Shown: positions 1 to 2,421 of the stretch, in pieces
Position numbering within the stretch: position 1 is the first letter of the stretch
Layout: each line of letters begins with the position of its first letter
Source of the DNA: an uncultured Oligoflexia bacterium
GTDB lineage: Bacteria > Bdellovibrionota > Bacteriovoracia > Bacteriovoracales > Bacteriovoracaceae
Length of the DNA: 6,073 nucleotides
Reading direction: 5' to 3'
Assembly: GCA_950060715.1 (NCBI GenBank)
Contig: CATLVA010000107.1
Span: 1-6,073, forward strand
Notes under the pieces: generated by a model
Told to the model about the DNA's origin: nothing
What the model saw: only the letters and a program-made list of their open reading frames with translations
Database searches by the model: none
Position numbers and translations under genes: made by a program

Positions 1-776
1 CCAAATGTACCGACAGCGACAGAAGGCCAGCCAGAAAACTGAACCGCAGGCCATCCTTCAAACTGAAGCCTTACATGCCTACCTGGAAACACGAGCGGCA
101 AATCATTTCCATTAATATAAATCTCAACTGCCTGTTCAAAACTAGAAGGGACGAATTTTGCAAGTAGATCGCCTTCATTCACCACAACATTTCCCGAACC
201 ATGAAGGACTCTTAGAATCACACCGTCCCTGGGAGCAGTAATCATCTGCGTCTGTTGCCGAGAAAGTTTAACTTCAGCACCTGCAAGATTTGCAGCAGCT
301 TCCGCCTCTTGAGAAAGAAGTTTTTTATATTCAATTTTTGCTTTTTCAAATTTTGTTCTAGCTGAAAGTCCTTGTTCAAAGAGCTCTTTTTGTCTTTTGT
401 AGTTTATATAAGATGTTTCACTCGCAGCTTTTGAAGCTTCGTACTTCTTAAGTTTTGCGTCTCGCTCTAGTTTTAATCGATCGATGAAATTAGGATCATT
501 ATCTACAATCTCTACAATTGGATCTCCTTTCAAAACTTTTGTGCCATCTGAAACATACCATTTATTAATACGACCAGGCAGAGTTGAATTAATATTCTGA
601 ACCCTATCATTTGGATTCATCGCAATGACTTTTCCATATCCTTTTGAACTCTGCTGCCACGGAGTGACCACGAGAATAATAACTGAAAAAGCTATGCTTC
701 CCAAAATAACGGCTGCAAGGGTTCTTGACCATTTAGGAACGAAATACAGATTTCTTACTGGAAAATCTTTATTCAT
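1..776 (-). CDS. HlyD-family membrane fusion (periplasmic adaptor) protein, partial: C-terminus beyond left edge
   Basis: Only the first 258 codons are in the window; the frame is open to base 1. Short cytoplasmic N-terminus, then one membrane helix at about residues 19-38 ending in TPW. Then a barrel-sandwich/lipoyl half-motif (about 63-90, with LPGRINKWYVSDGTKV and KGDPIVEIVDNDPN), a Lys/Glu/Ala-rich coiled-coil hairpin (about 95-175), the second lipoyl half (about 180-210, APRDGVILRV then NEGDLLAKFVP) and the start of the beta-barrel (232-258, GRHVRLQFEGWPAVQFSGW). This is the normal order for HlyD adaptors, which bridge an inner-membrane ABC exporter to a TolC-like outer-membrane channel. 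The ATG overlaps the end of the ABC gene by 8 bases and has a strong AAGGAG ribosome site (782-787) inside that gene, so the two are probably translationally coupled. Substrate unknown. The family call is firm; gene length and the next gene cannot be seen. Confidence 0.93.
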   Translation of the reverse strand, partial: MNKDFPVRNLYFVPKWSRTLAAVILGSIAFSVIILVVTPWQQSSKGYGKVIAMNPNDRVQNINSTLPGRINKWYVSDGTKVLKGDPIVEIVDNDPNFIDRLKLERDAKLKKYEASKAASETSYINYKRQKELFEQGLSARTKFEKAKIEYKKLLSQEAEAAANLAGAEVKLSRQQTQMITAPRDGVILRVLHGSGNVVVNEGDLLAKFVPSSFEQAVEIYINGNDLPLVFPGRHVRLQFEGWPAVQFSGWPSVAVGTF

Positions 777-2421
777 GATCTCTCCTTACATCTGAAAGCT
801 CTCTTCCTGAATCACAACTCACAATTTCTTCACCGTTTAGAAAATAATAGCCATCAAAATCAAAACCTTCTAGATTCTGATTGCTAAGTACAATAAGAGT
901 AATATTCTGATCGATTAAATATTTTAAAATACTTCTTCGCCTTTTCTTTTCCAATCCCTCAAAAACATCGACCGCCACAATAACTTTTGTTCCCACTAAG
1001 ATCTCTCTTGCGATAGTCAAACGTATCAATTGAGATGGCCATAGCGGATAACCAGCTGGGTTAATTTCAGTGTCTAATCCATCAGGCAGTGCCGTAATCA
1101 TATCTTGAAGGTCCACCACCTCCAAAACTTCTTCCACCTTTTTTATGGATATTTTTTCTAGTCCAAAAGTCAGATTTTCAAAAAGCGTTCCGTAAAAAAA
1201 ATGAGGTTCTTTTATGACTGAGATAAAATCATTCACTTGAAAAGCACAAAGTTCTTCGTAGCTTCTATTTCCAAATTGAACTTTATATCGACTCTCATCA
1301 GTAAACCCTCTGATCATATCGATAAAACTCAGTTTACTTGAATAAAATTTACTTTGAAGTAAGTAGCTCTTTCCATGTTCAAAATTGAGCGTCTCATTAT
1401 CAAACTTCACGAGTAAATCTTTACCTTTAATTTCTACAATTTCCTGCTTTAAATTTTCGGCTGGTTTCAATTTATAAAGTGAAGAAATTTTACTCAAAGC
1501 TGCATAAAGATCATAAAAATCTTCCAAGTATTTGCCTGCTCCAGAGAGTCCTGCAAGAATTACTGTAACGATGAGTTCCGCAGCGACTAATTGCCCCAAT
1601 GAAAGTTCACCAGAAATAACGAGAAACCCACCCAAACCTAAAATCAACGCACTCAAAAATGAATAAGAAATGAGGAGTAATACAATCTGAATGAATAAAA
1701 GCTTAAAATGGTCTTTTCTAGAGCCGATGTAATCATAAACTTTACTATCTGTGACTTCATAGACTTTCTTTTTATATTTTTGTCTTTTAAAAAAAGTACT
1801 CTCTCTAGCTATTTCTTCTAACCAATATGCTAGTTTGTATTTTCGATCTGATTCCTCAACCGCGGTCTTCATCGCTCTAGATCCAAATAAAAACCAGATT
1901 CCTGCTAGAAGAGAGATTAAGATAATATCAAAAACCAAAAAGTATGGGTGGTAAAATGCTAAGAGGATGAGTCCAAGTACGATCTGTAAAACGAGTGAAA
2001 CACCACCAGTAATTAAAGTGGTCGCTTTTTTCTGAACAGTCATTATATCAAAATAACGGTTCACCAGTTCAACACCATAATGCTTTGATAGTTCATCTTT
2101 ACCAGACATCATTATATTTTCCGCAATATCGGTGCTAATACGAATGAAAAAATGGCGTTGAAAAATCTCTATAATGAAAGTTTGTAGCGCTTTTAAAATA
2201 CTGGATATAATCAAAAGAGATAAAAGTAAGACCGTTAAAATAACTAGCGGCTGAACTAGAACTCCAAAAGCAATTGTGTTTACTAGTGCTTGTACTGAAA
2301 TTGGTATGGCCAGGGTGATAATACTGACCGCAATCCCATAAATGATTGCAATAGCGAAATATGAGCCTTCAGGTTTTAGGAGTTGATTATAATAAGATAA
2401 AAAACTTCTAAATTTTTGCAT
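769..2421 (-). CDS. ABC exporter half-transporter with degenerate nucleotide-binding domain (putative pseudo-ATPase)
   Basis: 550 residues. The N-terminal exporter membrane domain has about six helices (roughly 21-45, 55-78, 136-156, 160-180, 241-269, 276-293). The C-terminal nucleotide-binding domain (about 318-541) aligns well with ABC ATPases, but the motifs are altered. At Walker A (357-365) all three glycines are lost (SKFYSSKLS) and only Lys363 remains. The Q-loop Gln is Lys404. The signature is LWPSQ (460-464). Walker B keeps Asp485, but the catalytic Glu is Val486. The D-loop is EGLE and one residue short, and the H-loop His is Asn514. There is no C39 peptidase domain. From memory, HlyD-linked exporters of similar membrane-domain sequence also have a non-LSGGQ signature and no H-loop His, but keep Walker A; this copy has gone further. 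The start has AGAGG (2427-2431) five bases upstream. It is coupled to the HlyD gene, so it probably acts in the same inner-membrane export complex, perhaps with another ATPase supplying energy. Substrate unknown. Confidence 0.9.
   Translation of the reverse strand: MQKFRSFLSYYNQLLKPEGSYFAIAIIYGIAVSIITLAIPISVQALVNTIAFGVLVQPLVILTVLLLSLLIISSILKALQTFIIEIFQRHFFIRISTDIAENIMMSGKDELSKHYGVELVNRYFDIMTVQKKATTLITGGVSLVLQIVLGLILLAFYHPYFLVFDIILISLLAGIWFLFGSRAMKTAVEESDRKYKLAYWLEEIARESTFFKRQKYKKKVYEVTDSKVYDYIGSRKDHFKLLFIQIVLLLISYSFLSALILGLGGFLVISGELSLGQLVAAELIVTVILAGLSGAGKYLEDFYDLYAALSKISSLYKLKPAENLKQEIVEIKGKDLLVKFDNETLNFEHGKSYLLQSKFYSSKLSFIDMIRGFTDESRYKVQFGNRSYEELCAFQVNDFISVIKEPHFFYGTLFENLTFGLEKISIKKVEEVLEVVDLQDMITALPDGLDTEINPAGYPLWPSQLIRLTIAREILVGTKVIVAVDVFEGLEKKRRRSILKYLIDQNITLIVLSNQNLEGFDFDGYYFLNGEEIVSCDSGRELSDVRRDHE

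Follow-up and report, generated by a model that had tools for sequence, protein, structure and literature searches.

An ABC-derived tripartite exporter family that has probably ceased to use ATP

What drives an ABC exporter whose ATPase motifs have all degenerated? The question is raised by a gene in the 6073-nt stretch of DNA analysed here at its full length (contig CATLVA010000107.1 of an uncultured Oligoflexia bacterium; hereafter the window). The gene, called pseudo-ABC below, is located at 769–2421 on the minus strand, as are all window features given by coordinates in this text; its intact frame of 550 aa encodes a transmembrane domain (TMD) and a degenerate nucleotide-binding domain (NBD). 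ATP hydrolysis is the trait treated as defining ABC exporters, and the initial annotation of the window proposed that the gene encodes a selected pseudo-ATPase, either a scaffold or a channel powered in another way. Loss of the P-loop throughout the closest relatives, purifying selection on the NBD in the pairs measured and existence of relatives with no NBD at all support this proposal. We read the system, with a probability of about 0.6, as a tripartite exporter of ABC origin that has given up ATP and retains the NBD for docking, as a scaffold.

State of the ATP motifs in the window protein

The degenerate NBD (residues 336–550, positions 772–1416) keeps the predicted ABC NBD fold. Motif positions were set by alignment to family members with an intact P-loop. 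In the former Walker A, SKFYSSKL (residues 357–364, positions 1330–1353), glycines 357, 360 and 362 are replaced by Ser, Tyr and Ser and Lys363 is retained, in agreement with the initial annotation; in addition, Ser/Thr364 is replaced by Leu. The earlier assignments of Lys404 to the Q-loop Gln position (1210–1212), of LWPSQ to the signature (residues 460–464, positions 1030–1044; only Leu and Gln retained) and of Asn514 to the H-loop His position (880–882) also hold against the P-loop-intact members. The catalytic glutamate has to be moved: it had been placed at Val486 because another alignment was used, while in the family alignment the former Walker B, VIVAVD (residues 480–485, positions 967–984), has Val484 in place of the Asp and Asp485 at the position of the catalytic Glu.

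The D-loop is short, as was said before, but this is not a sign of degeneration: it is equally short in the P-loop-intact relatives P0095 and L072, so its length is a trait of the subfamily. Lys404 likewise stands outside the family-wide loss, since Gln404 is rare in P-loop-intact relatives (4 of 40) and is present in the near relatives of the window protein, P0002–P0004.

A Pfam search of the 550-aa protein found no PF00005, and PF00664 was matched at 25.7 bits, under the cut-off of 28; together with the family alignment this corroborates an ABC exporter with degenerate ATPase motifs. As Walker A, Walker B, H-loop and signature are all degenerate, the chain is predicted to be unable to supply any complete ATP site, and the argument that even a canonical partner could not restore one is upheld, the motifs of both composite sites being hit. 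The motif set of a type IV ABC exporter (Walker A, Walker B Asp-Glu pair, LSGGQ and H-loop) is thus missing; there is no whole composite site of the kind seen in heterodimeric exporters, all motifs in the one chain being degenerate; and, judged by motif alone, the protein is not powered by an ABC ATPase of its own. That the window protein works independently of ATP seems quite likely.

Spread of motif loss in the family

A protein search with the window protein produced 1954 matches, of which 120 were listed. Among the best 94 (P0001–P0094), three fragments without an NBD (P0085, P0087 and P0091) were left out, and none of the remaining 91 NBD-bearing sequences has a P-loop, although the database annotates PF00005 in a few of them. 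L001, a locus in a metagenome-assembled genome (MAG) of Halobacteriovoraceae, encodes a protein 63% identical to that of the window and was the sole relative found by the scan of named genome contigs; this sister (represented by P0003 in the motif table) is equally degenerate. Orthologues with intact motifs, which would point to recent decay, are therefore lacking among these best matches, and the pseudo-ATPase state is, as far as the alignments tell, old and common to the closest relatives.

A second search was seeded with the TMD of a protein in which TMD and adaptor are fused (see below), and loci from genomes of the phylum were added. Of the 280 sequences thus collected, 25 were removed for 95% redundancy and the 255 non-redundant ones that remained were classed; they consist of best matches to the window, to a single fusion and to genomes of the phylum and do not amount to a census. 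Seven fragments were left out of the counts, and P0168, a truncated fusion that our rule did not recognize, stands outside the 194 rows with an NBD region. In these 194 rows Walker A is kept in 40, the Walker B Asp in 60, the catalytic Glu in 75, the signature in 26, the H-loop His in 32 and the Q-loop Gln in 8; two sequences, P0095 and P0116, have the complete set. Of the 40 rows classed as P-loop-intact, 24 do not pass the test for the Glu or for the His. The 88 rows called pseudo were picked for having neither a P-loop nor an Asp-Glu pair, so that their zero P-loop count holds by construction and the unselected count is the 0 of 91 given above. The P-loop rule was strict, and partly kept forms such as L054, L068, L083 and P0185 were scored as lost.

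The gene was present in 32 of 129 genomes of the class of L001 (E ≤ 1e-60, one match per genome) and in 60 of 368 genomes of the phylum (E ≤ 1e-55), with the gene in two pieces in one genome. From the family name of L001 we take this phylum to be Bdellovibrionota. Four sequences, P0186 (named Pirellulaceae), P0112, P0204 and P0212, keep the Walker B Asp, have Gly in place of the catalytic Glu (DGxLDx) and have no H-loop His; weakening of the ATPase therefore seems to be wider than the phylum.

Selection on the degenerate NBD

The ratio of non-synonymous to synonymous substitution rates (dN/dS) was determined for the three degenerate pairs with estimable dS in both domains. The L091/L092 pair is 96.6% identical in the NBD and 99.1% in the TMD, yet half of its four-fold sites differ (57/110 and 80/160, respectively); its NBD has dN of 0.018, dS of 0.81 and dN/dS of 0.022, and its TMD has dN/dS of 0.005. 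The ratios for NBD and TMD are 0.149 and 0.065 in L090/L091, and 0.396 and 0.182 in L090/L092; the latter two are probably too high, because third-position GC contents of 0.97 and 0.81 depress dS. A P-loop-intact pair, L070/L075, gave 0.041 and 0.021. The pair of the window and L001 is saturated (NBD, pN 0.361 and pS 0.741; TMD, pN 0.184 and pS 0.783) and, like most other pairs, which are saturated in at least one domain, was not used as a ratio. Relaxed selection across the NBD is not what these values indicate, as all three NBD ratios are below 1 in pairs that lie outside the branch of the window. In the degenerate pairs measured the pseudo-NBD is, by this estimate, under purifying selection and less constrained than the TMD.

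From dead NBD to no NBD in one operon

Of 58 loci examined, 57, including the window, had a usable gene call; L069 was left out as its open reading frame (ORF) was masked by an opposite-strand ORF in gene picking. An adaptor gene follows, or is fused to, the TMD gene in all 54 loci with room on the contig. Of the 51 loci where a TolC gene would still fit on the contig, 50 have it next in line, and the gene set of a tripartite exporter (TMD gene, HlyD adaptor and TolC) is found in these 50. The window shows two of the three genes before its edge, which cuts the gene for the HlyD-type periplasmic adaptor (3–776; Pfam and ORF call). The start of this gene overlaps the pseudo-ABC stop by 8 bp, in line with the earlier description of an intact frame linked to an HlyD adaptor. 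In L071 and L088 the ABC gene is split, and the adaptor comes behind its second half.

The NBD is in a different state from locus to locus. The loci may be P-loop-intact (e.g. L070 and L072–L075) or have a degenerate NBD (the window, L001, L035–L053 and others); Pfam detected PF00005 in L064 and L072. In L086 (302 aa) and L087 (316 aa) there is a TMD only, the adaptor ORF overlaps the end of the TMD gene and Pfam gave no match at the cut-off. Finally, L077, L078, L080 and L082 have a single ORF of 668–701 aa, where the TMD leads directly into the adaptor; Pfam found HlyD-type domains in these fusions and no PF00005. The NBD is thus absent from the latter six loci, while the window keeps a pseudo-NBD. 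Such TMD-adaptor fusions make up 51 of the 255 non-redundant rows; the two that carry NCBI names, from a Bdellovibrionales MAG and a Pseudomonadota MAG, are called 'HlyD family periplasmic adaptor subunit'. Judged from sequence, the NBD-less and fused relatives, all outside the window, are the strongest support for ATP-independence.

The TMD at L084:6187–8107 enters the start of an adaptor, after which the frame breaks; it was placed apart from the main fusion clade and is perhaps a third fusion, either damaged or misread.

A tree was built from 60 representative TMDs with three exporters as the outgroup. Its 13 fusions form one branch (95/92, starred; recovered in 94% of bootstrap trees), whose sister is the degenerate P0170 (100/100) and which adjoins the clade of the window (88/80, not starred). 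The TMD-only L086 and L087 group with the P-loop-intact L055 and L056 (93/87, not starred). Parsimony gives two changes to NBD absence, and a single group of all NBD-less rows is rejected by the approximately unbiased test (p-AU 0.0026); on this tree NBD absence is of more than one origin. Loss of the P-loop takes seven changes by parsimony under the strict rule; repeated loss is not claimed, since a single origin is not rejected (p-AU 0.083). The order of events was not read from the root, because the outgroup exporters are on very long branches.

Conserved TMD core and coupling helices

The AlphaFold2 model of the window protein (pLDDT, the predicted local distance difference test, 90.3; pTM, the predicted template modelling score, 0.80) has a six-helix exporter TMD and an NBD, as in type IV ABC exporters; the TMD comprises residues 1–325 (1447–2421), its fold being predicted from the model and structural matches. 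The top structural match of the model is TmrAB chain B, presumably TmrB. A passage of PMC8277102 describes TmrB as the degenerate subunit of TmrAB. For a fusion protein the model was weaker (pLDDT 78.5) and the best 50 Foldseek rows were all of adaptor type, so no structural claim is made for the fusion TMD; the adaptor part matches AcrA and MacA among the matches listed.

Cytoplasmic loop 1 (residues 107–118, positions 2068–2103; modelled helices 108–114 and 116–120) and loop 2 (residues 204–215, positions 1777–1812; modelled helix 208–211) contain putative coupling helices 1 and 2. Identity was compared in pairs matched for transmembrane identity of 0.45–0.60. In the coupling helices it is 0.354 in the P-loop-intact group (432 pairs), 0.237 in the pseudo group (2236 pairs) and 0.080 in the fused group (685 pairs, gaps scored as mismatches); within the pseudo group it is 0.166 for coupling helix 1 and 0.307 for coupling helix 2. 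Walker B identity is 0.49 in P-loop-intact versus 0.29 in pseudo pairs, and the signature helix stands at 0.56 versus 0.43. We infer that the pseudo-NBD has been released from nucleotide contacts yet continues to impose a constraint on its docking site, chiefly on coupling helix 2, and that proteins lacking the NBD are free of this constraint.

Eleven charged TMD residues (E85, K131, H158, E190, K194, R235, H238, E282, E300, D304 and K311) show 87–100% weighted conservation in the P-loop-intact, pseudo and fused groups, and all eleven are present in both TMD-only proteins. Glu282 (1576–1578), in the last transmembrane segment (helix 275–293), is invariant in rows of all these kinds, TMD-only included; P-glycoprotein has Phe at the aligned position. 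The near-invariant His158 (1948–1950) lies in the loop between helices 123–157 and 161–206. As a whole, the transmembrane segments of pseudo and fused rows are conserved at least as much as those of P-loop-intact rows, although the groups differ in breadth.

Energy source and alternative explanations

Because this series resembles the route taken by transporters of the SLiPT type, here in an export-type operon, the exporter may well be gradient-driven, with the NBD as a docking scaffold. Its ancestor would have been an ATP-driven type IV ABC exporter with an HlyD-type adaptor and a TolC-type channel. The NBD motifs would then have been lost and the fold retained for a structural role, in which the pseudo-NBD would sit on the coupling helices and might hold or gate the TMD dimer. 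Transport through the TMD would be driven by an ion gradient, as in the SbmA-type NBD-less relatives of ABC transporters, and conserved residues such as Glu282 and His158 would be candidates for the coupling groups. The family, its few seemingly ATP-competent members included, possibly had such a charged core before the ATPase was lost. Ion coupling as such falls a little short of even odds. Still more tentative is the idea of an energy class beside ABC, RND and MFS, in which stepwise ATPase loss leads to ion-gradient export via adaptor and TolC with all stages in one phylum.

Several points weigh against this reading. Transport, energy source and the roles of Glu282 and His158 are inferences from sequence. 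The P-loop-intact relatives conserve the charged TMD residues equally well, so these residues are not proof of ion coupling; their role may instead lie in recognizing the substrate, contacting the adaptor or folding. All conservation comparisons are affected by the greater breadth of the P-loop-intact group relative to the pseudo and fused groups, and gaps in the fused coupling loops were scored as mismatches. The selection pairs belong to the L047-type branch and not to that of the window; L090/L092 has the highest ratios of the three, and in the window's own branch the NBD evolves much faster than the TMD (46% versus 75% identity between the window and L001). The constraint that groups the NBD-less rows was named after the tree was seen. 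Some of the 88 pseudo rows have residual motifs (Lys363 in 50, Glu485 in 34, His514 in 11), so that weak nucleotide binding is conceivable.

The alternative that survives best, while still unlikely, makes the TMD dimer a passive anchor for the adaptor ring and TolC, a gated pore or an assembly platform, with concentration gradients or another transporter determining the net flow. The TMD fused to the adaptor does resemble an anchor, the coupling helices can vary freely in proteins without an NBD, and the SSF-type symporter gene directly upstream in one clade could be a separate powered partner. This gene was seen in that one clade only, however, and the conservation of pseudo and fused transmembrane segments exceeds the needs of a mere anchor, with the same reservation about group breadth.

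It is improbable that the NBD acts as a regulatory sensor, gating the TMD through non-hydrolytic binding of a nucleotide or another ligand. The NBD-less relatives do without such input; 83 of the 88 pseudo rows have lost all three P-loop glycines, and the Walker A segment has an identity of 0.20 in the pseudo group versus 0.53 in the P-loop-intact group (matched pairs). The predicted intact NBD fold, the retained selection and the residual Lys363 and Glu485 speak for a sensor.

An ATPase acting in trans, encoded at another locus as a canonical exporter subunit or a free NBD, is a distinctly improbable source of power. Its precedent is good, as heterodimeric exporters with one degenerate site are well known according to a passage of PMC7756269, and other ABC proteins exist in each of the ten genomes searched. 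By motif scan, however, no paralogous ABC partner gene lies beside pseudo-ABC in the window, L001 or any of the 57 loci; another ORF with P-loop and signature patterns was seen in the fetched stretch of one locus, the P-loop-intact L067 (323 aa, four genes upstream). The 32 genomes with the gene have one family member each (E ≤ 1e-60). A profile of the family NBD was run on six NBD-less genomes and four others. Its power is low: true pseudo-NBDs scored 179 (G001), 157 (G022) and 116 bits (G075), generic exporters scored up to 159, and the 308 bits of G282 came from a sequence built into the profile. In the NBD-less genomes the best matches of this low-power profile were in exporter-sized frames (≤150 bits), frames of NBD size reached ≤101 bits and no orphan NBD of the family was recognized. 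The full-length profile found each genome's own gene, followed by weak exporter-sized matches of about 95 bits or less. The case for a separate ATPase is weakened by these searches rather than closed.

Recent decay or an artefact (pseudogene, frameshift or misassembly) can practically be dismissed: split frames occur in a few relatives (L071, L084 and L088), against which stand the intact frame of the window, the loss in 91 of 91 NBD-bearing sequences among the best 94 of 1954 matches and the purifying selection in the measured pairs.

Among ABC folds, the SbmA family provides the known example of a changed power source. The present family would add a seemingly independent case with surviving intermediates: one operon is found with a P-loop-intact NBD, with a dead NBD, without an NBD and with the TMD fused to the adaptor. 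The passage from a primary pump to ATP-independence becomes testable with natural proteins, and the role of the NBD as an engine can be separated from its role as a scaffold. There is a warning for annotation, too: several source names say ATP-binding, which the motifs contradict.

Neighbouring genes and adaptor features

Upstream of pseudo-ABC in the window are genes for an M24 peptidase and, divergently oriented, a tryptophan 2,3-dioxygenase (Pfam). Between the M24 gene and pseudo-ABC there is a 45-aa ORF (MKAFFLISAILFTLSCAS..., 2479–2616) with a lipoprotein-like start; its upstream sequence contains two promoter-like matches in the same orientation. The gene order in L001 is dioxygenase, M24, LysR, pseudo-ABC, HlyD and TolC, the LysR label having been assigned by us from sequence. 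This LysR-like gene (L001:7015–7899), located between M24 and pseudo-ABC, is without a counterpart at 2421–2800 of the window. A full-length adaptor homologue (L001:9646–10692) is followed by a TolC-like gene (L001:10544–12115).

A gene of 497–502 aa is found directly upstream of pseudo-ABC, overlapping or abutting it, in L047–L052, L088 and L090–L092. In L047 it encodes a sodium:solute symporter (PF00474); the genes of L048 and L052 are alike by eye, and for the remaining loci the same identity is presumed from size and place. In L047, L048, L049, L050 and L052 the symporter-size gene is preceded by an ORF of 100–124 aa with a tail such as YFLLI or FFLLI.

The adaptors of L001, L077, L078, L080, L082, L086 and L087 and the adaptor alignment share a strongly conserved block, FEGWPA..QFSGWPS; present in fused and unfused adaptors, it could be used as a family marker. 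The adaptor is about 350 aa long, and its best NCBIfam matches are RND_mfp and then type_I_hlyD, both under the cut-off. LysR-type genes occur within four genes of the family gene in 12 of the 57 loci; with the short RND/MacA-like adaptor, they weakly suggest a small-molecule rather than a large-protein substrate. A scan of the window and of a small number of neighbouring genes recognized no candidate for a secreted protein substrate.

Comparison with known systems

Type I secretion systems and PCATs (HlyB-HlyD-TolC) differ from the present family in that here the ATP motifs are missing and the adaptor is short, with RND_mfp ahead of type_I_hlyD; in contrast to the PCAT type, Pfam found no C39-type domain in the window protein. 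The heterodimeric exporters (TmrAB, TM287/288, BmrCD and TAP) are close in structure, given the top match to TmrAB chain B, but here there is no partner gene alongside and the losses affect motifs of both composite sites.

EmrAB-TolC is driven by protons. A passage of PMC8277102 describes an adaptor and TolC that work together with a secondary transporter of the inner membrane, an arrangement like that of the proposed system; the difference is that the inner-membrane subunit of EmrAB-TolC belongs to MFS and is not an ABC-derived TMD.

A parallel to the proposed mechanism is offered by SbmA/BacA. According to passages of PMC13316013, SLiPTs such as SbmA resemble type IV ABC TMDs that have lost both NBD and coupling helices; they work by a glutamate ladder and the proton gradient and were probably derived from YddA-like ABC proteins; as proposed here, a type IV ABC TMD thus works without ATP. 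SbmA differs in being an importer with an extra TM0 domain, whereas here the operon is of export type with adaptor and TolC, a pseudo-NBD persists in the window and many relatives, and TMD and adaptor are fused in one clade. For a comparable glutamate ladder the conserved Glu85, Glu190, Glu282, Glu300 and Asp304 would be candidates. SbmA/BacA was not among the sequence and structural matches listed, which says nothing about relatedness. Judged by titles and the starts of abstracts, we found no published description of this exporter family. A tripartite family in which the NBD is dead, deleted or exchanged for a direct fusion to the adaptor appears to be a new variant of both degenerate-site exporters and SLiPTs.

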